The notes under the pieces are model-generated. The model saw only the letters and a list, made by a program, of their open reading frames with translations, did not search any database and was not told the origin of the DNA. Positions 49,901 to 64,000 of a stretch of 64,000 bases of DNA are shown here, one piece after another; position 1 is the stretch's first letter; every line of letters begins with the position of its first letter. The stretch is taken from NCBI RefSeq assembly GCF_000332235.1, contig NZ_CM001775.1:1828230-1892229 (forward strand). The letters run 5' to 3'. This stretch comes from Geminocystis herdmanii PCC 6308 (GTDB taxonomy: Bacteria; Cyanobacteriota; Cyanobacteriia; Cyanobacteriales; Cyanobacteriaceae). Position numbers and translations under genes: made by a program.

Positions 49901-50002
49901 AGACTTCTTGCAGAAGTGGAGTAATGAGTAATGAGTAATAAGTTAATAAATTTATATTTTTCACCCTAAAACAGATTTTACTTTTTATTTTGCAAGGGGT
50001 CT
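49901..50002 (-). mobile_element. MITE-like element, family C, copy B
   Basis: In reverse orientation to copy A, the ends are AGACTTCTTGCA (49901) and TGCAAGGGGTCT (to 50002), a 12-bp inverted repeat with two mismatches. ATT flanks both sides, as at copy A. The interior matches copy A in about 90 of 96 positions by eye. It lies in the divergent manC-rpiA spacer. Confidence 0.72.
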
Positions 50003-50069
50003 ATTATTTCCTGTTCATTTTCTACTGTCAACTATCCTCTGTCAACATTAAACCCTACCTGAAAAAGCG

Positions 50070-50153
50070 GCAAACCTTGTACCCGTAGGTGCAAACCTTG
50101 TACCCGTAGGTGCAAACCTTGCACCCGTAGGTGCAAACCTTGCACCCCTACTT
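50070..50153. repeat. 21-bp tandem repeat, four copies
   Basis: The unit, GCAAACCTTG followed by (T/C)ACCCGTAGGT, occurs four times head to tail, the last copy diverged. There are no spacers and no cas genes. It lies in the manC-rpiA spacer. Confidence 0.85.
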
Positions 50154-50176
50154 GAATACTTTGTTTTCTGTGGGCA

Positions 50177-50200
50177 AGGGTTGAATATTATTCAAGCCCT
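50177..50200. repeat. Palindrome AGGGTTGAAT/ATTCAAGCCCT, copy 4
   Basis: It is the same family as 42409-42437, with one arm base changed, and lies about 85 bp before the rpiA start. Confidence 0.6.
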
Positions 50201-50285
50201 ACAAACTTGCCTATTCTTCATTCCCTTGTTAATCGATCGACAATCACAGATAATGGTCAAATATTAATTATCTTAAAATGTAACT

Positions 50286-50990
50286 ATGACTACAGACCCA
50301 GTAATAATAATGAAACAAGAAGTAGGCAAAATCGCTGCTTCTAAGGTACAATCTAATTCGATCGTAGGACTGGGAACAGGTTCAACTACAGCCTACGCCA
50401 TTCAATATATCGGGGAAAGACTAGCTAACGGTGATTTAACTAATATTGTTGGTATTCCGACTTCCTTTCAAGCGGAAGTTTTAGCTAAACAATACGGTAT
50501 TCCTTTAACGACTCTGGATGCGATCGATCATATAGATGTCGCCATTGATGGTGCAGACGAAGTTGATCCTCACAAAAACTTAATCAAAGGGGGAGGCGCT
50601 GCGCATACTAGGGAGAAAGTAGTGGACAGTTTAGCAAAAGAATTTATCGTAGTGGTAGATGGTGGTAAGTTAGTTGATCAGTTAGGCTCAACTTTTTTGT
50701 TACCTGTAGAAGTTATCCCCATGGCGGTTACTCCTGTGATGCGTCAATTAGCGGATTTAGGCGGTAAACCTGAGTTAAGAATGGGTATCAGAAAAGCTGG
50801 TCCAGTGGTGACAGATCAAGGTAATCTAGTTATTGATGTTAAGTTCGATCGCATTGACAACCCTGCGGAGTTAGAAATGAAAATTAATAACCTACCCGGA
50901 GTATTGGAAAATGGTTTATTTGTCGGAGTTGCCGATGTAATTCTTGTCGGAGAAATTATCGATGGAAAACCCTCGGTGAGAGAGTTTTAA
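50286..50990 (+). CDS. rpiA: Ribose-5-phosphate isomerase A
   Basis: RpiA interconverts ribose-5-phosphate and ribulose-5-phosphate in the pentose phosphate pathway and Calvin cycle. The key motifs are [14 protein letters not shown] (about 24-37), [24 protein letters not shown] (about 86-109, with the catalytic Asp, Lys and Glu) and [12 protein letters not shown]. The length of 234 is normal. The start is ATG after AATGTAACT; no ribosome-binding site is obvious. Confidence 0.96.
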
Positions 50991-51083
50991 CTTAGTTAGG
51001 TGTTGGGTATAGCCCTTTCAATTCTTATAGTAAAAGGCTGAATCTAACACCTAGTATTCACCCAAAAAGCTAGGAGGTAACGC

Positions 51084-52781
51084 CTAATTTTTTGAAAGTT
51101 GTGTGCCAAAAATTAATTGGTAATTATTATTAATAAATTGTGCAAATTTCTCTTGTAGAATAGGTGCTGATTTATCGGTAATAATATGGGTTTTAAATTC
51201 TTGCCCTTCGCTTAAATGTTTCCCGTAAGCTGATTGAAGATAAACTCGGTAATTTTCATCGTTTTGTAAGTGGGTTTGAAAAAAGGCTAAAGCCATAGAA
51301 TTAGTGTAACTTTCTAATAGGTAGGGTGCAGGAAGAGTTAAATTGCCTACGGTATTCACCAAGTCTGTAATACCCGCATCTAACTGGGAAAAGTCCACAT
51401 GGGCTTGACCTTCTTGTAATTGAAAATAAGTATCTGTACTGTTAATATGGGGAAAAGTTCGTGCTTGTTCAAAAACGAAGGGAGTCGCTGGATCGTAGCT
51501 ACCTGCTGCCACAAAAGTGGGTATAGTGACGTTATTTAATCCTTTTGCCCCAAAAATGGCGGCGTTGACGGCATTAACGGTAAAAACGGCTTTAACTCTC
51601 GTATCTCGAAAATCATAGTCTTTTCTGGGTAGATTTAAGGCACGACATTGTAATAATAGGGCATTATTCAAATTGCCAAAGGCTAAATTACAGGCATTTT
51701 CTAGGTTGTCAAAGTCAATTTTTGCTCCTCCTACTGCTAAGGCTGTATAACCGCCAAAGGAATGCCCCCCTACTCCTACATTGTCTAAGTTTAAGTTACC
51801 GCCAAATTGACTGGGATTTAAACGGGTTAATTCGTCTAATAAAAATGTTATATCTAAAGGTCGATCGATAAATTCTTCTAGGATAAATATTTGACGGGAA
51901 AATCCTGCTAGAAAATTCTCGGTTTGTTTTATATCACTACCTATATGCTGAGGCATGGCGACAACATAACCGTAAGAGGCTAAATGTTTGGCGATGGAGG
52001 CAAAATCTTCGGGACGAGAACTTAAACCGTGAGAAAATATAATGACAGGGGTATTTGCGGTTAACTGTTGCGGTTGATATAATTCCACATAAAATCGGCG
52101 ATTTCTTTTTTGATCAAATAGATTTAAGGTGGTGTTAGTAACTGCTTTTGAGCCTTGTTGACGAATGTCTGGTAATTTACTAAAGTCCATGTTACCTGCA
52201 GATTCAGCTTCGATCGAGGCTAAATTAGCTATTTCCGTGGCGAAAAACTCACTACCTTCAATCACTAAATTAACTTGCTCTACATACCTTAAAACTTGAC
52301 GGATATTAAGCTGAACATCAACGGATATATTCTGAATCACATTCATTAAACTTAAACCGTCTTTTTCCATAGCGGCTTTAACTAAAGCTCCCCGAAGAAT
52401 ATATCTACCATTACGCCCTCCCCTTACGTTGATAACTGAACCAAAATAGTTAAGTAATCGTTCCCCTTCATAAGTGTTCAAAATACGAGAAATTAAAGTA
52501 GGATCAACTTGTACGGGAGTAGTTAAGGCTTTGCGGAATAAGGCAGTTTGTTCTTCATCAACCCTAGCCAGATTGAGATAAAAACCTAAATTTTGGTTAA
52601 CTGTACCATCAAGGGCGAATTGTTCTAAAGATTCTACCCGTAAGTTAGCAATAAATGGACTGTAAACAAAGAAAATACTATCAGCAGAATAGACTTTTTT
52701 AATGTCTAATACCCCTAAACTGAGAAGACTTAAAGTTATAGCGGTGAGTTTACGAGAAAAAGATCGATCGAAAAAGCTCAT
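51084..52781 (-). CDS. Exported alpha/beta hydrolase with N-terminal DUF1400 domain
   Basis: The frame is open from 52829, but the ATG at 52781 gives MSFFDRSFSRKLTAITLSLL, a signal-peptide-like start (565 residues). Residues about 30-175 form a DUF1400 domain, a family found mainly in cyanobacteria (VYSPFIANLRVESLEQFA). The hydrolase domain follows, with FSHGLSSRPEDF (oxyanion loop) and the nucleophile in GGHSFGGYTALA. It is likely periplasmic. Related enzymes cleave esters such as PAF-type lipids, but the substrate is unknown. It is convergent with rpiA. Confidence 0.85.
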   Translation of the reverse strand: MSFFDRSFSRKLTAITLSLLSLGVLDIKKVYSADSIFFVYSPFIANLRVESLEQFALDGTVNQNLGFYLNLARVDEEQTALFRKALTTPVQVDPTLISRILNTYEGERLLNYFGSVINVRGGRNGRYILRGALVKAAMEKDGLSLMNVIQNISVDVQLNIRQVLRYVEQVNLVIEGSEFFATEIANLASIEAESAGNMDFSKLPDIRQQGSKAVTNTTLNLFDQKRNRRFYVELYQPQQLTANTPVIIFSHGLSSRPEDFASIAKHLASYGYVVAMPQHIGSDIKQTENFLAGFSRQIFILEEFIDRPLDITFLLDELTRLNPSQFGGNLNLDNVGVGGHSFGGYTALAVGGAKIDFDNLENACNLAFGNLNNALLLQCRALNLPRKDYDFRDTRVKAVFTVNAVNAAIFGAKGLNNVTIPTFVAAGSYDPATPFVFEQARTFPHINSTDTYFQLQEGQAHVDFSQLDAGITDLVNTVGNLTLPAPYLLESYTNSMALAFFQTHLQNDENYRVYLQSAYGKHLSEGQEFKTHIITDKSAPILQEKFAQFINNNYQLIFGTQLSKN

Positions 52782-52930
52782 ACAAAATTTAAAGGATAAT
52801 TTATTATTTATTATCAATGAAAAAAGCAAGATGAAAACATAATTATTGAATAGACGATCGAGCCTTCTTATTACAAAACTTAACCCGATAGAAATAATCT
52901 ATAATTAAAGTCACTCAAAAATAGGAGGAT

Positions 52931-53398
52931 ATGGTAATGGTAGCCCAATTAATCAAAAACCAAACAAATTTGTACGATACTGACTATCATCTTTGGATAT
53001 TAGAAACCGTTAAAAAACTAGAAAATGGTGATTTTAATTCTGTAGATTGGGAAAATTTAATTGAAGAGGTATTAGGTTTGAGTCGAAGTGATAAAAGAAA
53101 ACTGGAAAGTCTGTTAATGAGGTTAATGGAACATCTTTTGAAGTTGGGTTATTGGGAATTAGAAAAAGAAACAAATAAAGGGCATTGGCAAGGAGAAATC
53201 CGTAATTTTCGTAAACTAATCAAAAAAGAATTAAAAGCGAGTCCGAGTCTTAAACGCTATTTACAAGAGATATTTGAAGAATCTTATCAAGATAGTCGAG
53301 AAATTGTCAGCGATAAATCTCAACTACCTCTTAATACCTTTCCCGAAAAGCCCATAGCATCTTTAGAAGAAATTCTCGATGAAAACTGGCTTCCCTAA
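52931..53398 (+). CDS. DUF29 domain-containing protein
   Basis: The 155-residue protein is a DUF29 family member: NLYDTDYHLWILETVKKLE, DWENLIEEVLGLSRSDKRKL and HLLKLGYWELE. The family is expanded in cyanobacteria, with no known biochemical role. A strong AGGAGG (52923-52928) favours the first ATG at 52931, although the second methionine (52937) is possible. The gene ends within a CCCCCAAT tandem repeat. Confidence 0.88.
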   Translation: MVMVAQLIKNQTNLYDTDYHLWILETVKKLENGDFNSVDWENLIEEVLGLSRSDKRKLESLLMRLMEHLLKLGYWELEKETNKGHWQGEIRNFRKLIKKELKASPSLKRYLQEIFEESYQDSREIVSDKSQLPLNTFPEKPIASLEEILDENWLP

Positions 53399-53440
53399 TC
53401 CCCCTAATCCCCCAATCCCCCAATCCCCCAATCCCCCAAT
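53391..53440. repeat. AATCCCCC octamer tandem repeat
   Basis: About five units AATCCCCC/AATCCCCT lie between the convergent DUF29 and aroK stop codons, overlapping the end of the first. Confidence 0.85.
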
Positions 53441-53997
53441 TAATTCATATCGGGATTAAATTCGGGTTTCACATGGTGGGGAATTTCTGTGAATATCTTA
53501 TTAACAATATCCTCTGGAGTATCTCGATCGAACACAGTAATAATAATATCAGCTTGTTGATATAAATACTCTCTCTGTTGTCTCAAATCCGTCAATTTAG
53601 TCACTAAATCTTCTTCTTGTAATAATGGGCGAGTGTTGTCTTCTGCCAGTCTTTCAGTTAAAACATCAATAGGTACATCTAACCAAATCACCATACCATC
53701 CCGTAAATGACTCCAGTTGTCTTGACGAAGAATGATACCTCCCCCCGTAGCGATAACAGTGCGAGTATAAGCAGAAACTTCTTTTAACACATCATTTTCT
53801 AAGGTACGAAAACTAGCCTCCCCTTCCTCCGCAAAAATTTGCGTAATGGTTTTATTACTAAGGGTTTCAATAATGGCATCGGTATCTAAAAAACGATAAT
53901 GTAACTTTTTAGCCAATAATTCACCTACGGTAGTTTTTCCCGAACCCATCATACCAATTAAATAAACATTTAATCCTCTTAAAATATCCATTAACAA
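53440..53997 (-). CDS. aroK: Shikimate kinase
   Basis: AroK phosphorylates shikimate in the chorismate pathway. The P-loop GMMGSGKT is at 15-22, the shikimate-binding D in FLDTDAIIE, and ATGGGIILR and DNTRPLLQ (adenine/lid region) are all present. The length of 185 is normal. The second methionine (MDILRGLN), two codons in, is the more usual start. It is monocistronic. Confidence 0.95.
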   Translation of the reverse strand: MLMDILRGLNVYLIGMMGSGKTTVGELLAKKLHYRFLDTDAIIETLSNKTITQIFAEEGEASFRTLENDVLKEVSAYTRTVIATGGGIILRQDNWSHLRDGMVIWLDVPIDVLTERLAEDNTRPLLQEEDLVTKLTDLRQQREYLYQQADIIITVFDRDTPEDIVNKIFTEIPHHVKPEFNPDMN

Positions 53998-54134
53998 TAA
54001 TTAAACCTCTTGAGAAAATAAAAATAATTTACCACAAAACAAAAATTCTCCCTTATTTGATTAAGAATAAATTTGTTTAATTTTGTCTATACCAAGTCTC
54101 AAAACCTTGATTTTTCATTCTTTAACCTAATACC

Positions 54135-54260
54135 TAAGCTAAAACGCATTTAACTTGCATTTTTTACTAATTTTTAAAATGGCTACAACTCTTAATTATT
54201 GCCTCTTGCCTTTTGCCTTTTGCCTACCGTTATCAGTAAACTTAGATGCGTCCTAGCTTA
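54135..54260 (+). mobile_element. MITE-like element, family B, best copy
   Basis: The left end TAAGCTAAAACGCAT (54135) and the right end ATGCGTCCTAGCTTA (to 54260) are inverted repeats that extend to 22 bp with four mismatches. The interior contains the low-complexity TTGCCTTTTGCC run. No target duplication is apparent. A second full copy is at 20207-20336 and a left-end copy at 5045-5076. It occupies part of the 370-bp aroK-comB spacer. Confidence 0.65.
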
Positions 54261-54262
54261 AC

Positions 54263-54297
54263 ACCTTCTTCCGTCAAAACACTTTTTCAGCAACGTC
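54263..54297. repeat. Dispersed TAACACCTTC(T)TCCGTCAAAA repeat
   Basis: The segment TAACACCTTCTTCCGTCAAA and following ACACTTTTTCA recurs at about 63670-63705 with few changes. It has no dyad and its function is unknown. Confidence 0.5.
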
Positions 54298-54367
54298 TAT
54301 GTTGAAAATGAAAGTTTCTATGATATAATCCCCTAGTCCTAATTAATATATCATTGCCTAATTTACC

Positions 54368-55099
54368 GTGAAAATTTCTGTTTATCATACCCCAGAATCT
54401 ACTCCCGATAATGATATTCCTGATTGTGCCATCGTGATTGATGTATTGAGAGCTACAACAACTATTAATACTGCTTTAAATAATGGTGTAAAATCTGTCA
54501 AGGCTTTTAGTGATGTAGATTTATTATTAGCAGAAAGTAGTCTTTTACCAAGGGATTCCTATTTAACTTTAGGGGAAAGAGGAGGTAAAAAAGTCGATCG
54601 ATGCGATTTTGGTAATTCTCCTTTAGACTGTACTAGGGAAACTGTGGCAAATAAACAATTATTTATTACTACAACTAACGGCACTCGTGCGTTACAAAGA
54701 GTTAAAGAGGCTTCTACTTTAATCACAGGAGCGATTATTAATTATAGTGCCGTGGTGAATTATGTAAAAACAGCACAACCTGAAACTGTTTGGTTACTTG
54801 GTTCGGGATGGGAAGGTGGTTATTCTTTAGAGGATACCGTATGCGCAGGAGCGATCGCATCTGGATTAGTTGATTTAAGTGATACGGAGTCGATTGGTAA
54901 TGATGAAGTAGTAGCTTCGATCGCGCTGTATCATCAATGGAAAGATAATTTATTGGGATTATTTCGTTTATCCAGTCATGGACAAAGATTATTAAAATTA
55001 AATTTAGATGATGATTTAAAATATTGTTCTGAGCCTAATATTATCTCTACTTTTGGCATCCAAACCGAAAAAGGTGTTTTGACTTTACATACTACTTAA
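54368..55099 (+). CDS. comB: 2-phosphosulfolactate phosphatase (ComB family)
   Basis: The 243-residue protein matches Com[21 protein letters not shown] at the N terminus, [26 protein letters not shown] and [20 protein letters not shown]. In methanogens ComB makes 3-sulfolactate for coenzyme M. The family is common in cyanobacteria, where the physiological role is unclear because coenzyme M is not made. The start codon is GTG at 54368; I see no ATG that would serve better. It is monocistronic. Confidence 0.88.
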
Positions 55100-55296
55100 G
55101 ACTTCAAACGCTAAAATAAGTGTTTTTTGTGATATTTTTTGTAATTAAATTTTTTTTTGCCAAAATTTGCATAAATTAGGAAAGTTCTCCTGATAAGTAA
55201 ATAAGAATGAAAATTTATCCATAATCAGATTTTTCCTGATAGGTAAGTCTCAATTGGATAAGTTGTTCACTTTTTACTATATTAAGGAGTTTTTTC

Positions 55297-56481
55297 ATGA
55301 ACGATCGATCGAATCCAGAGAATAAACCATTAAAAGCTACGGAAAGAGTCAGTAATACAAAACCAAAACCTCGTCTTTTTTCTCAAGAGGAGTTAAATTC
55401 ATCTCCTTGGGGAAAATTCATCTTATTTTTAAATCAATCTTACGATAATTTTATTCCTCATAATTTTGATAAACAAAAAAGACAATTAAAAATAGTAGAA
55501 ATTCAGAAAAAAATTCTTACAATTTTAGAAAGTAAACAATATCAGACGTGGAATAATTTACTTGATAATCTGGATTTTAATGATTATGAATATGATATTG
55601 CTGAAAATTTCTGTTTTCATCTTTCTCACAAATATTCCGATGATAATATTGAAAAATTTTTGGAAAAATGGGAAAATTATTTGACTAATTTTGTCAGTTT
55701 ATTTGAACATTATTTTAACAATATTGAAGCCCCAGATTTAGTTAAATTAAATCAAATAGCAGATATTATTGATCAATTTAATAAGTCGAAAGAACGTACT
55801 TTTTGGTTTATTATTTTGTTACCTAAATTTATCGATGATAACTCTAAAAAAATATTAATTAACTGTATTGGTTATCAAGAAATAATTAAGTTTGGGGCTT
55901 TTGAAGACTTAAAAGAATTTGGTTATAAACTACAAAAAAAGTTTGCTTTAACTCGTACCGCTATTAAAGATCGTACTGCTCAAAATTTAGTACAGGAATT
56001 AGGGGAAGTTGAGAGTAAATTTAAGGGCGAAATACAACAGCTAGAATTGAAGATTAAACAGTTAGAAAATGAGTTAGAAGAAACTCAAAGAAATTCTTTT
56101 CAAAATGCTGTTTATGATTTGGCAAAATCTTTACAGGATAATCAACAACAACCAGTATTAAGTCAATTATTTATTCTTTATAAAAAGCTAGATAATTGTT
56201 TAGAAAATAATGAGAGTTTATCCCCTACGGATACTTTAACTTACTTTATCACGATCGAATCTTTATTGACGGCATTTAAACAGTTAAATATTAGTCAATT
56301 TCCCGAAAAAATTGAGGGAACTTTTGAGATTACGGGGGAAGATTTAGATAACAATAAATATAACTACACATCTGGCTCTCAATTTGTGAGTAAAGACGAT
56401 AAAAAAATTGTCAAATGTATTGCCCCCGGTTGGAAAGTGGACGATCGAATTGTGACTCCTGCCAAAGTAGAAGAAGCATAA
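55297..56481 (+). CDS. GrpE-like nucleotide exchange factor with novel N-terminal domain
   Basis: This is a 394-residue protein. Residues about 30-215 are an all-helical acidic domain that I do not recognise. A coiled coil follows at about 230-270 (ELGEVESKFKGEIQQLELKI). The C-terminal part ends in CIAPGWKVDDRIVTPAKVEEA-like sequence, the arrangement of the GrpE beta head (canonical ending GYxxxDRVLRPAxV). AAGGAG lies 10 bases before the ATG. It is 39 bp upstream of the NYN-Hsp70 gene on the same strand. This makes it the probable exchange factor for that Hsp70, but the assignment of the head is by pattern only. Confidence 0.7.
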   Translation: MNDRSNPENKPLKATERVSNTKPKPRLFSQEELNSSPWGKFILFLNQSYDNFIPHNFDKQKRQLKIVEIQKKILTILESKQYQTWNNLLDNLDFNDYEYDIAENFCFHLSHKYSDDNIEKFLEKWENYLTNFVSLFEHYFNNIEAPDLVKLNQIADIIDQFNKSKERTFWFIILLPKFIDDNSKKILINCIGYQEIIKFGAFEDLKEFGYKLQKKFALTRTAIKDRTAQNLVQELGEVESKFKGEIQQLELKIKQLENELEETQRNSFQNAVYDLAKSLQDNQQQPVLSQLFILYKKLDNCLENNESLSPTDTLTYFITIESLLTAFKQLNISQFPEKIEGTFEITGEDLDNNKYNYTSGSQFVSKDDKKIVKCIAPGWKVDDRIVTPAKVEEA

Positions 56482-56520
56482 TTAATAATATTAAAAACTA
56501 GCAAAAAAGGTACAAAAAAT

Positions 56521-59500
56521 ATGAATAGAATTGCAATTTTATTGGATTTAGATAACATTAAACCTAAGTTAGATATAGTCGAAGATATTTGTAAAAAACA
56601 CGGCTCGATCGTCATGCGTCGTGCCTTTTCTAATACCCCTTCGGTTTTAACTGCCTATGGTAGTAAATTTCGAGAATTTGACTATCGTTTTGAATTAACC
56701 CCCGGTTTAACCCCCGTATCTCAAGAGGTGGACAATCTCATTTTTCAAACCGCAGAAGAATTAATTAACAATAGTAAATTAAACATTAATACCATTGCTA
56801 TAGTAAGCAATGATAATGATTATTCTCGCTTATTTAATAAACTTAAATCTCGAAAAATTAAAACGATTATTATAGGTACAAATATCGGCAATAAATGTCG
56901 TGAAACTGCTGATTATGTAGAGATTCTCAAGGATGTAATGCGATCGCAATGTGTCGGCATCGATTTAGGCACGACAAACACAGTTATTTCTTTGACAACC
57001 TTTAATGAAATGACGAAGCAATATAACGCTGCAGTGTTAGAAGTTCCTTTGAAAGACGAAAATTCTAGTCTCGTACGCAAAGCAACCATCCCCTCTAGTG
57101 TCAGATTCAACAGTCTTGACAATGGAGAAATCGGAGGGCATATTAAAAATAACGCCTATGCTTTCCGAGATCAAACTATTTTGGCATGGAAACATAACAT
57201 GGGGGATTCCGATAACGGGAAACCCTTTTATTATCAACTTACATCGGGAGAAATTACTCCAGAAATGGCGGCTTCTCAAGTGTTGGCTTTTTGTCGTCAT
57301 CACTTATTAGAAAGATATGGTAGTGTGGAAGGAGTCGTCATTACTCATCCAGCTTCCTATGAATCCGATGCCATTGAAGCCACCCGTAAGGCAACCGTGT
57401 TGGCAGGTTGGCAAGAAGCTGAAGTTGTTTTGTTATCTGAACCTCAAGCCGCTTTATACGATTTCCTTCACTCCATGCAAAAAGGCGATATTCCTCCTCG
57501 TTTTGATGTGAATACTCCTTCTAATATTATGGTGTATGACTTAGGTGGCGGTACTTTAGATGTTACTCTCCACGAGGTACAATGGTCAGACAAGCATAAT
57601 AATTTTGTAATTAATGATATTGCGATCGGCTCTCGCACAAGGGTAGGGGGAGACAAAATAGATAAATTAATCGCTGATTATATCTTAGATTATGGTTTGA
57701 ATAATGTTGAAATATCTAGCGTCGATCGAGATAAATTAAGTTATGAATTGCCCATTTATGCAGAAAAATTCAAGAAATTATGGGGAGGAGAATATATTTA
57801 TGCAAGGGAGAAACAAGACTTTAAAATGTCCTTTCAAGGGACTTTTTTAGAAGGAAATGTCCCCATTCGTCACAATATCGACACAGAAAAAATGAAAGGT
57901 ATTTTACAAGAATTATTATGCCCAGATTTAACCATTGATTTACTAGAAAGTATGAATCCCGATACTGCCTTTAATGAGAGTCCTTTTGTCGATCGATTTG
58001 ATACCTTTATTGTACCGATTTTGGACGTATTATTAAAAGCTAAAGCTACTTTAAAACAAGTGCCGAAAGTAGATGCAATTTTACTTAATGGCGGGATGAC
58101 TTATTTTCCCTTAATTAAAGAAAGATTAAGAGAATTTTTCGGAGATATTTTGATTCTCGATGAAGGAAATCCAGATTTAGCAGTAGCGAGAGGAGCTAGT
58201 TTATTTGCTTCGGGAGCTTTAACTTCCGTTGAAAGAGTAAACCCAACAAATATTTATTTAGAAGCCATTACTAATGGTAATAGTAAACTAAATTTATTAA
58301 TTGCTCAAGGACAAAAATACCCCTATAAAACCTGTATCAAAGATACTTTTAAATTACCTCAAAAAGATTCAGGTAATTTGATGTTTAAAATCTGGGTAGG
58401 TATGGGTAATAAAATTAATATTAATACCAAACAAGAACGATCGAGACAAGTGGCATTAAAAAATATTTTTGCCTCTAATTTAAAACAAGGAGATTTGTTA
58501 GATTTAGAAGTAGAATATACCTTTGATGAAAGACTATTATTAACCTTAGTTTCTCAAAAAAATCAAAACGCCAGATTTAAAATTGAGGTTGCTTCAGATT
58601 CCCATGATGTAGAGGAAATTATCAAAATTTCTAATCCGATTAATCTACAAACTCTTATCCCACAAATATCCCGTACTCGTCACGGAAAAACTATTGAGCC
58701 TAATCTTCGAGTTGATTTTAAACATTGGGAAGATGTTGCCATTCAATTAGATAAAAATTTTAATAATGGCAGACTACACGATCGAAGACGAGATTTAGTC
58801 AAGCAAACTACAATAGCCGTTAATCGTAGTCAAATCATCGATGATTTAATTCGTTGGTTAGAAATTGATAATTTTTTCAACTCTCCTTCCTTTGCCACTA
58901 AAACTGTGGTTGCTGTATCCTCTTTAGGAGAAATTCTTTCATCCATTAACCTCGATGAATCTCCCAATGTTAAAGCATCTGAAGGTAAGTTAGAACAATG
59001 GGTACAAATGAAAATTAATCAAGACTTAAACCGATCGGACGATCGATTATACCAAGCCATTGTCAACTTACCCGGTAAATTATATTGGAGTGGTTTTGAT
59101 CAAAAATTGATTGAAGGGTTTAAATGTTTTCAAACAGAAGCAAAAGCCTTAGTCTTTTTAAATTCCCTCGGTAAATGTGGAGAATGTAATACTTATAATT
59201 TAAACTTTTTACGCCATGTCATCAAAACAGGGAAGCACATGGCACATCGGCAAAAAGCCTCTTGGGCTTTAGCTCGTTTAATCAGCCCTGGGCAACCTTT
59301 ACAATGGCGTATTGATTTTAAAGAGGTAAATTCGATCGCACAATTTGCCCTTGATCAATTATATGGCATCACAAAACAACCTCAAGTAGCATTAGATTTA
59401 TTAAGTTGTTTATCTCAATGTTTAGCGTGGCAACTATTAGACTATCAATTAGAAACATCTATTTATCAGCGAGTAGGGCAATTAAAAACAACAGAGTTGC

Positions 59501-59652
59501 CAGTTTATGGTAATCTCAGTGGTTTTTCTCACATTGAATCGGTATTCAAAAATCGATTAGATTTATTATCCAAAATGTTAGACATTAACACTATCTCTGA
59601 TAAAGATTCCACAGAAATTAAACAGTGGCTATTAGAATCCATTAAAGAATAA
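56521..59652 (+). CDS. Fusion of NYN/PIN-like nuclease domain with Hsp70 (DnaK-like) chaperone
   Basis: In this 1043-residue protein, residues 1-140 form a NYN domain: LLDLDNIKP with D9 and D11, EVDNLIFQTAEE, SNDNDY with D98 and D100, and a final TADYVEIL. These acidic residues are the expected metal-binding site of LabA/PIN-type RNases. At 145 an Hsp70 ATPase starts abruptly with VGIDLGTTNT, followed by MVYDLGGGTLDVTLHEV, AIGSRTRVGGDKIDKLI and LNGGMTYFPLIKERL. A short beta-type substrate domain (about 600-700) leads to a long helical C-terminal region (about 720-1043) that resembles the DUF3731 region of atypical bacterial Hsp70s. No J-domain gene is adjacent. The GrpE-like gene upstream suggests a dedicated nucleotide exchange partner. 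Nuclease substrate and client are unknown. Confidence 0.85.
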   Translation: MNRIAILLDLDNIKPKLDIVEDICKKHGSIVMRRAFSNTPSVLTAYGSKFREFDYRFELTPGLTPVSQEVDNLIFQTAEELINNSKLNINTIAIVSNDNDYSRLFNKLKSRKIKTIIIGTNIGNKCRETADYVEILKDVMRSQCVGIDLGTTNTVISLTTFNEMTKQYNAAVLEVPLKDENSSLVRKATIPSSVRFNSLDNGEIGGHIKNNAYAFRDQTILAWKHNMGDSDNGKPFYYQLTSGEITPEMAASQVLAFCRHHLLERYGSVEGVVITHPASYESDAIEATRKATVLAGWQEAEVVLLSEPQAALYDFLHSMQKGDIPPRFDVNTPSNIMVYDLGGGTLDVTLHEVQWSDKHNNFVINDIAIGSRTRVGGDKIDKLIADYILDYGLNNVEISSVDRDKLSYELPIYAEKFKKLWGGEYIYAREKQDFKMSFQGTFLEGNVPIRHNIDTEKMKGILQELLCPDLTIDLLESMNPDTAFNESPFVDRFDTFIVPILDVLLKAKATLKQVPKVDAILLNGGMTYFPLIKERLREFFGDILILDEGNPDLAVARGASLFASGALTSVERVNPTNIYLEAITNGNSKLNLLIAQGQKYPYKTCIKDTFKLPQKDSGNLMFKIWVGMGNKININTKQERSRQVALKNIFASNLKQGDLLDLEVEYTFDERLLLTLVSQKNQNARFKIEVASDSHDVEEIIKISNPINLQTLIPQISRTRHGKTIEPNLRVDFKHWEDVAIQLDKNFNNGRLHDRRRDLVKQTTIAVNRSQIIDDLIRWLEIDNFFNSPSFATKTVVAVSSLGEILSSINLDESPNVKASEGKLEQWVQMKINQDLNRSDDRLYQAIVNLPGKLYWSGFDQKLIEGFKCFQTEAKALVFLNSLGKCGECNTYNLNFLRHVIKTGKHMAHRQKASWALARLISPGQPLQWRIDFKEVNSIAQFALDQLYGITKQPQVALDLLSCLSQCLAWQLLDYQLETSIYQRVGQLKTTELPVYGNLSGFSHIESVFKNRLDLLSKMLDINTISDKDSTEIKQWLLESIKE

Positions 59653-59671
59653 TTCCCATGGTTTATTACTT

Positions 59672-59741
59672 AGGGTTTGCTGAATAAGTCAGAAAACTAT
59701 AAAAATCAAAGGTTTAGACATAATACATTAACCAAAAGCTG
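59672..59741 (+). repeat. Dispersed 70-bp repeat, copy 3
   Basis: TAGGGTTTGCTGAATAAGTC followed by AAAAATCAAAGGTTTAGACA is the best copy of the family at 10735 and 24001. It starts 20 bp after the Hsp70 stop. The rest of the spacer up to the ferredoxin shows no gene. Confidence 0.65.
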
Positions 59742-59924
59742 ATTTCTGAGTCATTATTTAGTCATAAGTAAAATAAAAATATAGTAATTCTATTTTATAA
59801 GTGGTAAGTATTTACTCATTACTCAGAAATCGTTTTTTATCCCACCCATTTTTTCCCTCACCCCACCGAGCATCTCTTTACTGATACAATTAAAGATTGT
59901 GAATAAATATATAAAAAAATTTTT

Positions 59925-60251
59925 ATGACTAATATCTATACGGTAGAAATTATTAATGAAGGTAAAACTTATACTTTACAAGTACCTGAAGATCAAAAAA
60001 TATTAGATGTAGCCGATCGAGAAAACGTACAAATACCTAATTCTTGCAATGCGGGAGTTTGTACGACTTGTGCCGCCAAGATTATTTCTGGAGAAGTTGA
60101 ACAAGGAGAAGGCATGGGCTTATCTCCTGAGTTACAAGCCGAAGGTTACGCTTTATTGTGTGTGTCTTATCCTCGTTCTAATTTGAAAGTAGAGACAGGG
60201 AAGGAAGATGAAGTGTACGATCGACAATTTGGTAGAGCGATTGACTTTTAA
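59925..60251 (+). CDS. Plant-type [2Fe-2S] ferredoxin
   Basis: The 108-residue protein has the cluster ligands C41, C46, C49 and C79 in the pattern C-x4-C-x2-C-x29-C (PNSCNAGVCTTCAAKI). It is an electron carrier of the photosynthetic ferredoxin fold. The C-terminal extension KEDEVYDRQFGRAIDF after the fold distinguishes it from the major PetF and resembles minor ferredoxins of cyanobacteria. The usual acidic partner-binding surface is present in part. The stop is immediately followed by the IS607 element. Confidence 0.93.
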   Translation: MTNIYTVEIINEGKTYTLQVPEDQKILDVADRENVQIPNSCNAGVCTTCAAKIISGEVEQGEGMGLSPELQAEGYALLCVSYPRSNLKVETGKEDEVYDRQFGRAIDF

Positions 60252-60299
60252 CGAAAAACTTACTAAACTTAGTTATAGTTTACTATATAGTTAAGTTTT

Positions 60300-60914
60300 A
60301 TGGTTTATAGACCCCATGAATTTGCCAAATTAATTGGAAGATCGGTTTCAACCCTTAGAAGATGGGATTTTGAAGGAAGGTTAGTCGCAAAAAGAACCAT
60401 TGGAAATCAACGTTATTACGATGAAAATGATTTACAATTAGCACTTAATCTTCCTACTTCTTTGGATGAAAGAAAAACTGTTGTTTATTGTCGAGTATCT
60501 TCATCAGGGCAAAAGGATGATTTAAACTCCCAAATTAAAGCGATGGAATCTTTTTGTTTAGGTGGTGGGATTCCAGTAGATGAGTGGATTACAGAAATCG
60601 ACGGAGGATTAAACTTTAAGCGTAAAAAGTTTTTATTGATTATGAAAGGTATTAGACTGGGGGAAATTAATCATTTAATTGTCGCCCATAAAGACCGATT
60701 AGTTCGCTTTGGCTTCGACTTTTTTGAAGAATATTGTCAATGGTACGGCTGTAAATTAACCGTAGCAAATCAACAATCCTTATCTCCAGAACAAGAAATG
60801 GTAGAAGATTTGTTAGCTATTGTTCAGACTTTTTCTTGTCGTTTATACGGTTTAAGAAGCTACTCAAAAAAACTTCAAGAAATCTTAACAACTGATACTT
60901 TACAATCTCCCTAG
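60300..60914 (+). CDS. tnpA: IS607-family transposase TnpA (serine recombinase)
   Basis: The 204-residue protein has an N-terminal MerR-like helix-turn-helix (FAKLIGRSVSTLRRWDFEGR, then NQRYY) and a serine resolvase catalytic domain with R65 and the nucleophile region S67 in VVYCRVSSSGQKDDL. The conserved AHKDRLVRFGF is also intact. IS607 transposases act by a serine-recombinase mechanism with short or no target specificity. The frame is complete, so this copy may still encode an active enzyme. It is followed by tnpB after 40 bp. Confidence 0.93.
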   Translation: MVYRPHEFAKLIGRSVSTLRRWDFEGRLVAKRTIGNQRYYDENDLQLALNLPTSLDERKTVVYCRVSSSGQKDDLNSQIKAMESFCLGGGIPVDEWITEIDGGLNFKRKKFLLIMKGIRLGEINHLIVAHKDRLVRFGFDFFEEYCQWYGCKLTVANQQSLSPEQEMVEDLLAIVQTFSCRLYGLRSYSKKLQEILTTDTLQSP

Positions 60915-60954
60915 ATATTGTTATACTTCATTAAGTTAGTAAAGTTTAATTATT

Positions 60955-61860
60955 ATGTTTAGTCTTAAGCTAGAACTGAAATTAAATAACAAAGAGAAAA
61001 CTCTTATGGCATAGCACGCTGGGTTCTCTCGCTTTGTTTATAATTATGGTTTAGCGTTAATGGGAATGATTAATCATCAGGAAATTAAGGGAAGTTCTAG
61101 CTATAAGATTGACACTATTAAAAAATTATTTACTAACTACACTAAGAAGCAACCAGAATATGCTTGGTGTAATAATCTTAGTTCTAGGGTATATCAAAAT
61201 GCTTTTCGAGATTTGAAAACTGCCTATTCACGGTACTTTCAAGGGTTAGGGGAGCAACCTGTCTTTAAAAGGAAGAAAGATAAACAATCATTTAGAGTCG
61301 AGTCGAGTAATGGTAAAGTATTATTAGAAGCAGGAAAAATCATCAAAATACCAACTTTAGGTACTTTTAGATTGAAGGAGGCAATTCCTTTTTCTTGTGT
61401 TTCTCAAACTTTTACTATTAGTAAATCGGCGGATAAATGGTTTGTTAGTTTCTCTATTGATGGGGATAGATTACCACCGAGAATCCATCCCGTAATTGAA
61501 CCTGTTGGCATTGACTTAGGCTGTAAAACTTTTGCGACTCTAAGTGATGGAAATGTAGCTGATTTGGGAATGTATGAGTTTAAACGTCAACTAACTTATA
61601 AAGCTCTGTGGTATGCTAATCGTGTTGATATAATCGATCAATGGTATCCATCGTCAAAAAAATGTAGTAATTGTGAGCAGAAAAAAGAAACTTTGTCTTT
61701 GTCTGACAGGCTATATACTTGTGATGAGTGTGGTTTTGAGTGTGATCGTGATTTGAATGCCTCGATCAACTTGGAAAAAGCACCTGAAGAAGTAATTATA
61801 GAAAAAATAGGTTGGGTTACAGCCGAATTAACGTCTGTGGACAGTATCAAGCCGACTTGA
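60955..61860 (+). pseudogene. tnpB: TnpB (RNA-guided nuclease of IS607), inactivated twice
   Basis: The frame starts at ATG 60955 (MFSLKLELKLNNKEKTLMA) and is cut by TAG at 61012-61014, where relatives have Gln, then stays open in the same frame to 61860. RuvC-I Asp (VGIDLGCK, codon 187) and RuvC-III Asp (CDRDLNAS, codon 266) and the C-x2-C zinc ribbon are present. However, the 80 residues between them are far fewer than the roughly 170 of ISDra2 TnpB, so the segment with the second catalytic Glu is deleted (junction near 61555). An alternative start at 61060 would give a 266-residue catalytically dead protein, so a repurposed role cannot be excluded. Confidence 0.85.
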
Positions 61861-61927
61861 CTGGTAGAAGCAGAAAGTAAACGCTATAGTGAGTAACTAT
61901 AGATAAGTTTTATATAACAGTAAGCTA

Positions 61928-62010
61928 AGAATTGAGAATTGAGAATTGAGAATGGAAAATTAATAACGAAGTGATTTGTTGTTAATTGTTCATTGTTAAT
62001 TGTTAATTGA
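61928..62010. repeat. Low-complexity repeats between IS607 and psbY
   Basis: GAATTGAGAATTGAGAATTG and a following TTGTTAATTGTTCATTGTTA run are members of the dispersed heptamer-type repeats. No gene is present. Confidence 0.6.
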
Positions 62011-62079
62011 TTTAATAATTGCAACAAATGTTATCATTTTTCTAATAAAGAGAATTATTAAATACTGGAGTATAAGATT

Positions 62080-62205
62080 ATGGATTTTGATTGGAGATTA
62101 TTAGTTGTTCTATTACCTTTAGGAGTTGCTGGTGGTTGGGCAGTTTATAACATTGGTGCATTAGCTATCACTCAAGCACAAAAATTCTTAAAAAAACAAA
62201 GCTAA
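62080..62205 (+). CDS. psbY: Photosystem II protein PsbY
   Basis: A 41-residue frame begins MDFDWRLLVVLLPLGVAGGW and continues AVYNIGALAITQAQKFLKK. The short acidic and aromatic N terminus, the single membrane helix with WAVYNIG and the basic tail are those of cyanobacterial PsbY, a peripheral PSII subunit near cytochrome b559. CTGGAG nine bases before the ATG is a suitable ribosome-binding site. The gene is short and easily missed in automatic annotation. Confidence 0.88.
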   Translation: MDFDWRLLVVLLPLGVAGGWAVYNIGALAITQAQKFLKKQS

Positions 62206-62240
62206 GTTAAGAATGAGGAATTAGGAATAAGGAATTAGAA

Positions 62241-63620
62241 ATGAAAAACATAGTTCAACAAGAAACAATAGTGGCGATAGCTTCCGCCGTTGTACCGAAT
62301 CAAGGTAGTATCGGCATCGTCAGGTTAAGCGGTGTCACTGCCTTAGAGATTACTCAAAAAATTTTTATACCCCAAGGTAAGCCGTCTTGGAAATCCCATC
62401 AAATCCTTTACGGTTATATTCAACATCCTGATACCCAACAAATTATCGATGAAGTTTTAGTATTATTGATGTTATCTCCTCGATCGTACACTAGAGAGGA
62501 TGTCATCGAGATTCATTGTCACGGGGGAATTATTCCTGTACAGCAAATATTGGAATTGTGTTTGGAATGCGGTGCAAGACTTGCTAATGCAGGAGAGTTT
62601 ACTTTAAGAGCCTTTTTAAATGGTAGAATCGACTTAACCCAAGCTGAAAGTATCTCAGAAATTGTCGGGGCAAAATCTCCTCAAGCCTCCCATGTTGCTT
62701 TATCAGGATTACGGGGAAAACTGGCGCAACCCATTCGAGAAATGCGCTCTAGTTTACTCGATATTTTGGCGGAAGTTGAGGCAAGAATTGACTTTGAAGA
62801 CGATTTACCTCCCCTTGATGAAGCGCAAATTAGAGAGGATTTAGAAGTTAGTCTGTCTCAAGTTAAACACATTTTAGCCACAAAAGATCAAGGGGAGTTG
62901 TTGCGTAGTGGGGTAAAAGTTGCGATCGTAGGTCGTCCAAATGTAGGTAAATCAAGCCTTTTAAATGCTTGGAGTAAAACCGATCGAGCTATTGTCACGG
63001 ATTTACCCGGAACGACTCGTGATGTGGTAGAATCTCAGTTAGTGGTGCAAGGTATCCCCATTCAAGTTTTAGATACCGCAGGAATCAGGGAAACGGAAGA
63101 CACTGTAGAAAAAATTGGGGTTGCTCGATCGTTACAAGCGGTATCCCAAGCGGATTTAATTTTATTTACCATCGATGCTAGTGTCGGATGGACTCTGGAG
63201 GATGAAGAAATTTATCGACAAATCAAAGACTTAAATCTGATCCTCGTCATCAATAAAACCGATATAGCACCATCAGAAGGGGTCAAATACCCCGATGAAA
63301 TTAATCAAATAGTACCCACCGCAGGGGCACTCAATCAAGGCATATACGCCCTAGAAACTGCCATCATTGACACCATTAAAAAGGGAGAAACCACCGCAGG
63401 AGATTTAGATATTGCCATTAATCAACGTCAAGCCGCCGCCCTAACTCGTGCTAAAATTGCCCTGATTCAAGTACAAGAGACAATGGAAAATCAGTTACCC
63501 CTAGATTTTTGGACTATTGATTTACGCATTGCCATTCAAGCATTAGGGGAGATTACAGGGGAAGAAGTGACAGAATCTGTACTCGATCGAATTTTTAGCC
63601 GTTTTTGTATAGGGAAATAA
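62241..63620 (+). CDS. mnmE: tRNA modification GTPase MnmE
   Basis: With MnmG, MnmE makes the 5-carboxymethylaminomethyl modification at wobble uridine 34. The N-terminal tetrahydrofolate-binding domain begins [20 protein letters not shown]. The G domain has G1 GRPNVGKSS (231-239), G3 DTAG and G4 NKTD. The C-terminal FCIGK contains the invariant functional Cys. The length of 459 is normal. It begins 35 bp after psbY on the same strand. Confidence 0.96.
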
Positions 63621-63786
63621 GAAGTGAACTACCCGTTTCTAGCACCGATTAATCAAGTTATATCATAAACCTTAACACCTTCCTTCATCAAAAAAACTTT
63701 TTAACCAACCCCTAATTATCGATGAAAAACGGTTCTTGATTTTGGTATATTTAATGTATAAACCAACGATCTCAAACCAAAACTAT

Positions 63787-64000
63787 ATGATTACCCAGAA
63801 AATTTGTATGTGGGGAAATTCATTGGGAATTAGACTTCCTCAAGCCATAACTCAGCAAGTGAAATTACAAGAAGGGGAATTATTAAATATTGTTATTGAA
63901 GATAATAAAATTATCCTTACTCCAGCAAAACCAAAATATACCCTTGAGGAATTGCTGAAAAATGCCACCTCTGTCATGCAACATGATGAATTAGATTGGG
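63787..64000 (+). CDS. AbrB/MazE-family antitoxin-like protein (cut by the right edge)
   Basis: The visible 71 codons read MITQKICMWGNSLGIRLPQA, then QEGELLNIVIEDNKIILTPA and a helical LEELLKNA segment. This is the swapped-hairpin AbrB fold of MazE antitoxins followed by a toxin-neutralising tail. The reading frame runs off the window, so the stop and any mazF-like toxin partner are not visible. A plausible -10 (TATATTTAATGT) lies about 30 bases upstream. Confidence 0.8.
   Translation, partial: MITQKICMWGNSLGIRLPQAITQQVKLQEGELLNIVIEDNKIILTPAKPKYTLEELLKNATSVMQHDELDW

Follow-up and report, generated by a model that had tools for sequence, protein, structure and literature searches.

A two-gene locus of the cyanobacterium Geminocystis herdmanii PCC 6308 pairs a GrpE-like protein with a single polypeptide in which a predicted NYN (PIN-like RNase) domain is joined to an Hsp70 ATPase. 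The window in which it lies, which is the whole stretch of 64,000 nucleotides that was analysed, belongs to a genome of one contig (4.26 Mb). Both genes are on the + strand and are separated by 39 bp, with the GrpE-like gene at 55297..56481 (394 aa) and the fusion gene at 56521..59652 (1043 aa), as an earlier note on this DNA had placed them. The fusion contains an NYN domain (residues 1–140; 56521..56940; PF01936) with the acids D9, D11, D71, D98 and D100, an Hsp70 nucleotide-binding (ATPase) domain (residues 144–572; 56950..58236; PF00012), a putative Hsp70 substrate-binding region that is assigned by position only (residues 573–705; 58237..58635), and a putative C-terminal helical, possibly ARM/HEAT-like domain (residues 706–1043; 58636..59649). 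The upstream protein carries a coiled coil and a GrpE domain (residues 233–391; 55993..56469; PF01025).

As shown by profile matches and alignments, the NYN domain, the Hsp70 ATPase and the large C-terminal half belong to one conserved polypeptide, which is paired with a GrpE-like protein. This conserved two-gene architecture is real and was not found described. An assembly or sequencing error that joined two genes, which the earlier note had named as a possible flaw, is excluded, because full-length relatives at 47–67% identity are present in ten further genomes.

Domain composition of the fusion protein and its partner

The Hsp70 model PF00012 matches residues 145–573 of the fusion at 87.9 bits (cut-off 20.6) and 14/14 relatives at E ≤ 0.01, and the ATPase profile matches DnaK structures at 3.1e-23, which bears out the proposed Hsp70 ATPase from codon 145, where the motif VGIDLGTTNT begins. 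D148, T151, K224, E307, D340, T345 and D347, which correspond to the catalytic positions of DnaK, are intact in all the rows covering them. The Pfam match ends at residue 573 and the profile alignment to the genome's own DnaK at about residue 584, and residues 573–705 are assigned to the substrate-binding region by their position. Residues 770–1042 are helical in a single-sequence model of the whole protein, which is of low confidence (predicted local distance difference test, pLDDT, 34.4), and the tail resembles importin alpha weakly (whole-sequence E 0.014, no single significant stretch). The earlier inventory had left these approximately 470 residues after the ATPase undiscussed and had omitted D71, a usual NYN acid; the acids it did name, D9, D11, D98 and D100, are all present at their positions. 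A profile of the C-terminal domain (A5), for which up to five first-look candidates were scored per genome, matched 9/386 genomes of the phylum, namely eight fusion carriers and a remnant in G006 (64 residues, two stops). Because A5 matched nothing else, the domain is confined to the fusion, and one remnant, in this sample. A search of the window's genome for DUF3731, a domain that marks one group of Hsp70s, gave no match at E ≤ 1. The Hsp70 part is also matched, at 114.5 and 75.9 bits, by two phage families of PHROG whose function is annotated as unknown.

The NYN model PF01936 matches residues 3–131 over its curated cut-off of 24.2 bits, within the codons 1–140 to which the domain had been assigned, and recognizes 13/14 relatives at E ≤ 0.01 in alignment A3, which has 14 rows, excludes the broken G127 copy and includes L015 without its N-terminus. 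A second NYN model, TIGR00288, matches 12/12 relatives at E ≤ 0.1, far under that model's own cut-off. In a by-eye comparison with two LabA-like proteins, D9 falls in the motif of the first strand, D71 in that of the helix, and D98 and D100 in the 'SGDGD' motif, which reads SNDND here. What we take to be the active-site acid set comes from these two same-genome proteins and from background on the family. No row that covers them has lost D9, D11, N12, D71 or D98; the E at position 9 of L015, a copy that starts with an unrelated short stretch, is not counted. Comparison of the NYN profile with the LabA-like protein L064 by hhalign yields a partial alignment of 44 columns (P 0.0034). An NYN model from two sequences is of low confidence (pLDDT 49.7). 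Among PDB structures it comes closest to 2qip (E 0.027, TM score 0.34), and none matches at E ≤ 0.001. As 2qip is an NYN-family structure, which a canonical NYN protein of the same genome matches at 3.4e-17, this low-confidence match is in weak agreement with a PIN-like fold.

The GrpE model PF01025 matches the upstream protein over its cut-off (35.2 against 25.8 bits), spans model positions 7–161 of 165 and recovers 10/13 relatives at E ≤ 0.01, which supports the claim that the protein is GrpE-like at its C-terminal end. Residues 1–230 look helical and have no Pfam match over the cut-off, and the family matches only coiled coils among PDB sequences (E 0.16 and 0.91). From its likeness to GrpE, the protein would act as a dedicated exchange factor. 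An ordinary DnaK/GrpE operon was considered and rejected, since the genome's other Hsp70 places match the fusion protein at only 17.8–30 bits and its best GrpE (147.5 bits) sits elsewhere, next to a DnaK. Six-frame genome searches place the NYN and GrpE matches over the cut-off at the same two places. The genome also has another Hsp70 of 731 aa (L003), with a divergent short GrpE gene (178 aa, L060) approximately 5–6 kb away that is separate from the best GrpE gene.

A search for the CIRCE heat-shock element across the window, allowing up to 3 mismatches, gave no match; no known RNA family exceeded the gathering threshold within 50000–64000; and promoter and terminator counts in 55000–60000 were close to those of shuffled sequences. 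Just downstream of the pair lies an IS607-like element (60300–61860), in which a MerR/resolvase-type protein precedes one of OrfB/TnpB type; the latter has a Cas12f1-like TNB domain and, at 266 aa, may be shortened.

Conservation, distribution and divergence of the pair

The neighbourhood set consists of 14 stretches of 14–20 kb from 13 genomes together with the last 20 kb of the window, which amounts to 15 loci of nine genera with 254 mostly non-overlapping open reading frames of at least 70 aa. Exactly two families are common to all 15 loci, the GrpE-like protein and the fusion, and the next most frequent family (ABC-type ATPases, by eye) occurs in 6/15. Since the two families alone are common to the 15 loci, no J-protein gene is conserved beside the pair. 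In 15/15 loci the fusion is immediately preceded, on its own strand, by the GrpE-like gene, as expected from the co-occurrence that the earlier note had asked about, with a gap of 2 to 278 bp between them; the G127 and G180 genes are broken.

Relatives of the fusion occur in 12/195 genomes of the order survey (E ≤ 1e-30) and in 8/386 genomes of the phylum survey (E ≤ 1e-25), the latter all of the same order. Among the listed genomes of the order survey, the window's family has five with and seven without. The full-length copies are those of G064, G041, G146, G023, G167, G025, G181 and G058 from the order survey and of G256 and G300 from the phylum survey. G127 and G180 have broken or partial copies, and G117, of the window's genus, has an in-frame stop near the fusion's C-terminus. 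Such patchy presence and broken copies resemble those of accessory genes. A single-sequence scan of genome contigs returned one locus, which says nothing firm on other phyla. A clean insertion site was not recovered in the same genus: relatives of the two flanking genes lie more than 2 Mb apart on one contig in G083 and G172, and on different contigs in the fragmented G133 and G117.

A toxin-antitoxin-like pair, in which the NYN-Hsp70 protein would be a latent RNase kept in check either by the Hsp70 part of the same polypeptide or by its GrpE-like partner, would suit two genes that have the smaller partner upstream and that are patchy and decaying. We consider it very improbable, as both proteins are large and have, respectively, a GrpE likeness that suggests an exchange factor and an intact ATPase.

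Ten neighbours were hand-picked by eye for naming, and six, from three loci, were scanned with PADLOC; in this biased choice without a baseline, a gene pair of candidate defence type lies within 2 kb at 2/3 loci. These are an AAA/DUF3226 pair in G058 that matches PDC-M38A/B (312.9 and 243.4 bits) and an AAA/DUF4276 pair in G256 that matches HEC-01A/B (514.1 and 282.5 bits). Of the nucleotidyltransferase/HepT pair in G064, only the first gene has PADLOC matches, and these are weak. Two loci, further to or among those scanned, have toxins (HicA and PemK).

The ratio of nonsynonymous to synonymous divergence (dN/dS) was calculated by the Nei-Gojobori method with our own script and is given in the order NYN, ATPase, residues 573–705 and residues 706–1043. 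The values are 0.02, 0.09, 0.05 and 0.03 for L009/L010; 0.30, 0.23, 0.62 and 0.62 for L016/L048, where the NYN value rests on few changes; 0.15, 0.21, 0.42 and 0.49 for L016/L017; 0.30, 0.13, 0.26 and 0.54 for L013/L015; 0.07, 0.09, 0.16 and 0.15 for L009/L011; and 0.22, 0.17, 0.20 and 0.20 for window/L022, with L015 and L022 being damaged copies. Residues 706–1043 are thus faster (0.49–0.62) in 3/6 pairs, in which the NYN and ATPase domains are at 0.13–0.30, and no domain exceeds 1 in any of the six pairs. The N-terminal region of the GrpE-like protein is faster than its GrpE domain in 4/6 pairs, approximately equal in one and slower in one. This pattern fits, without proving, the C-terminal half as a recognition part. 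Between L016 and L048 (G181 and G300, of one genus), synonymous divergence reaches 0.23–0.51 at fusion residues 676–850 and 976–1043, compared with approximately 0.03–0.12 elsewhere, which suggests recombination of the C-terminal half.

Plasmid cassettes with a related Hsp70

Outside cyanobacteria, the Hsp70s closest to that of the fusion in the plasmid and phage collections belong to two plasmid cassettes. Among plasmids, the Hsp70 finds its best match on Priestia megaterium pNCT2_2 (29.1% identity over residues 134–610, E 4e-35), where the operon (L030) encodes, in order, an MBL/beta-CASP/RMMBL protein, a 476-aa coiled-coil protein, the Hsp70 (583 aa) and a HEAT protein. Klebsiella grimontii pNY3A (L031) has the identical gene order, with the Hsp70 annotated as two open reading frames, and all four products are related between the two plasmids. 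Among 72,556 plasmids, relatives of the HEAT protein and the 476-aa protein turned up on this pair only.

When 19 ATPase sequences are placed in an unrooted tree, a branch with support 100/99.7 separates 11 NYN-Hsp70s, along with the Hsp70s of Priestia and Klebsiella, from three DnaKs of the window's genome, two Hsp70s of haloarchaea and one from a Nostoc plasmid; the tool warned that long branches meet here. The tree dropped the long rows Per_hsp, L003 and L006 and left out the partial copies L022, L015 and L043. An earlier tree that contained Per_hsp, L003 and L006 gave an equal split (100/99), with Per_hsp on the NYN side. These cassettes suggest an Hsp70 module with exchangeable RNases.

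Four further genes come after the Priestia cassette (L030:11643-15826). The product of the first has weak, coiled-coil-type PADLOC matches and that of the second is small; the third, of HAD type, resembles PsyrT/ShosT weakly, and the fourth is DprA-like, with a strong match to ShosA (243.7 bits). The resulting ShosTA-like pair lies 1.6 kb past the HEAT gene, beyond two small genes, i.e. these surroundings appear to be a defence-type neighbourhood. The Klebsiella cassette is flanked by integrase and HNH endonuclease genes. Beta-CASP relatives gave four hits on other plasmids, and none of the three that were inspected (H69, H71 and H72) has an Hsp70 among its annotated neighbours. No DNA match to the Klebsiella cassette was found in E. 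coli genomes, nor was the Priestia-type Hsp70 found in viral contigs.

Two other plasmids carry chaperone genes of a different arrangement. Nostoc sp. UHCC 0302 has a TPR/DnaJ-domain/GrpE/Hsp70/TPR gene row near an integrase (L049:2218-8220), a mobile mini-chaperone set, and a haloarchaeal plasmid has adjoining vWA, Hsp70 and GrpE genes, with GrpE on the opposite strand (L032:4636-8859), which resemble predicted conflict systems.

A proposed chaperone-controlled RNase and described systems

We propose, with a probability of about 0.5, that the pair is a stand-alone, two-gene, chaperone-controlled RNase in which clients drive an Hsp70/GrpE cycle that gates or delivers RNA cleavage. The C-terminal half would bind a client, whether a phage protein, a nascent chain or a damaged ribonucleoprotein, around which the Hsp70 would close as ATP is hydrolysed; the dedicated GrpE-like partner would then reset the cycle. 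The state of the Hsp70 would expose or position the NYN domain, and nearby RNA would be cut. The role is most likely accessory, as anti-phage (abortive) defence or stress-linked translation arrest, and not general folding. Catalysis, gating, client binding and biological role are all inferred here from sequence. If the proposal is true, Hsp70 would be an RNase switch besides a folding machine, with a client-binding cycle that leads to RNA destruction, and chaperones could be tested as bacterial sensors of infection or ribonucleoprotein damage.

Several observations weigh against this reading, some of which concern the NYN domain. D100 is Gly in 5/14 rows (L022, L013, L014, L015 and L043, of which L015 and L043 are two partial copies from G180), that is in 4/13 genomes, and where LabA-like proteins have an acid, six positions beyond D71, 13 rows have Thr and one has Arg; catalysis may therefore be weak or lost in some copies. 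Of the earlier interpretation, the architecture, the two-gene unit and the co-occurrence of the GrpE-like gene are well supported, and gating of RNA cleavage by the ATPase cycle is kept as a hypothesis. Of the aspartates whose loss in homologues the earlier note would have counted against it, D9, D11 and D98 are retained in the covering rows and D100 is not. The Pfam score of the NYN domain is modest at 31.8 bits (against 118 and 117 bits for two canonical NYN proteins that the genome also encodes), its profile has no match among PDB sequences up to E 1, and hhalign against the LabA-like protein L063 gives P 0.067, with the best of ten shuffles at 0.064. The NYN domain might accordingly be an RNA-binding or docking module without catalysis, which would make the protein an RNA-regulated chaperone, and the Hsp70 proteins of CoCoNuT systems have been argued to bind RNA (PMC11090510). 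This alternative seems improbable to us, given that the remaining acids and N12 are invariant in the rows covering them and that the identity of the NYN domain to the window protein among relatives (57–75%) exceeds that of the C-terminal domain (34–58%).

Other adverse points concern recognition, mobility and defence. The faster divergence of residues 706–1043 is mild in L009/L011 and absent in L009/L010 and window/L022. The fusion's C-terminal domain has no match to the plasmid HEAT proteins, and the C-terminal likeness of the 476-aa-type proteins to the GrpE-like family is suggestive only (probability 39%, single-comparison E 0.0003, at the extreme C-terminus), with Pfam finding no GrpE in them. 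No place in the plasmid (72,556) and phage (50,697) records covers 80% of the fusion protein, and a less sensitive pattern scan did not find the fusion in viral contigs. PADLOC has no match for the upstream protein and, for the fusion, only PDC-M61B over ATPase residues 332–390 (17.6 bits, not passing), and the three genes after the Klebsiella cassette have no or weak, coiled-coil-type matches. The flanks vary between genera and are mostly housekeeping-like genes. Such flanks, together with a C-terminal part that is not fast-evolving in L009/L010, would suit RNA or ribosome quality control, in which the Hsp70 would recognize ribonucleoproteins that have stalled or been damaged, or nascent chains that have aggregated, and the NYN domain would clear the attached RNA, with no antiviral role; sacsin offers a hypothesised precedent (PMC3710099). 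The very patchy presence, the decaying copies and the plasmid relatives, one of them in a defence-type neighbourhood, argue against quality control, which we regard as unlikely.

A chaperone-controlled RNase could, more tentatively, represent a new class of chaperone-gated RNA-degrading immune systems, in which the sensor switch would be an Hsp70 that has a dedicated exchange factor and a recognition half open to change, and different RNases would be plugged in as effectors, NYN by fusion in cyanobacteria and beta-CASP in trans on the Priestia and Klebsiella plasmids. We hold this extension to be possible but doubtful. If it is true, the exchange between NYN and beta-CASP would mark the Hsp70 part as a reusable control module.

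A full-text literature search found neither an NYN-Hsp70 fusion nor a beta-CASP/Hsp70/HEAT cassette described in titles and abstract openings, with thin coverage of subscription papers and preprints; this agrees with the earlier statement that no such system is described, though CoCoNuT systems are near in spirit (PMC11090510). Type III CoCoNuT systems, which are predicted RNA-targeting, RNase-containing systems, encode CnuD/CnuCD proteins with Hsp70-like nucleotide- and substrate-binding domains and HEAT-like helices, alongside McrB/McrC, a UPF1-like helicase, a HEPN or other nuclease effector and degenerate Walker A-like motifs (PMC11090510). Both arrangements place an Hsp70 with HEAT-like helices, which are only possible ones here, alongside a predicted RNase function, whereas the present pair has intact ATPase residues, a GrpE-like partner and an NYN domain fused to the Hsp70. 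The degenerate Walker A-like motif of the CnuD type is absent here, with the phosphate-binding and catalytic positions intact in the covering rows, and no CoCoNuT operon partner emerges as a third family common to the 15 loci, although no McrB model was searched.

Some GAP1-N2 GTPase-centric conflict systems carry Hsp70 and GrpE genes together, and thereby share the pairing of Hsp70 with GrpE in a predicted conflict system; they differ in being centred on a GTPase and in having DnaJ or TPR fusions, and the part of the source available does not mention NYN (PMC7159879). No third family of the GTPase-partner kind is common to the 15 loci, although a GTPase model was not searched. Sacsin likewise joins chaperone machinery with an RNase-type domain in one protein, a combination that has been hypothesised for its Hsp90-like, DnaJ and HEPN parts, but it is eukaryotic and has Hsp90-like and DnaJ parts instead of Hsp70 and GrpE, and HEPN instead of NYN (PMC3710099).

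The plasmid beta-CASP cassettes resemble the pair in combining an RNase and a helical-repeat protein with a related Hsp70 in one cassette, although there the RNase is of the beta-CASP type and in trans, and the HEAT protein is separate. LabA-like/TIGR00288-type NYN proteins share the predicted fold family and several acidic positions with the fusion; this genome encodes two, each shorter and free-standing, whereas the fusion has the extra D11, a variable D100 and the Hsp70.

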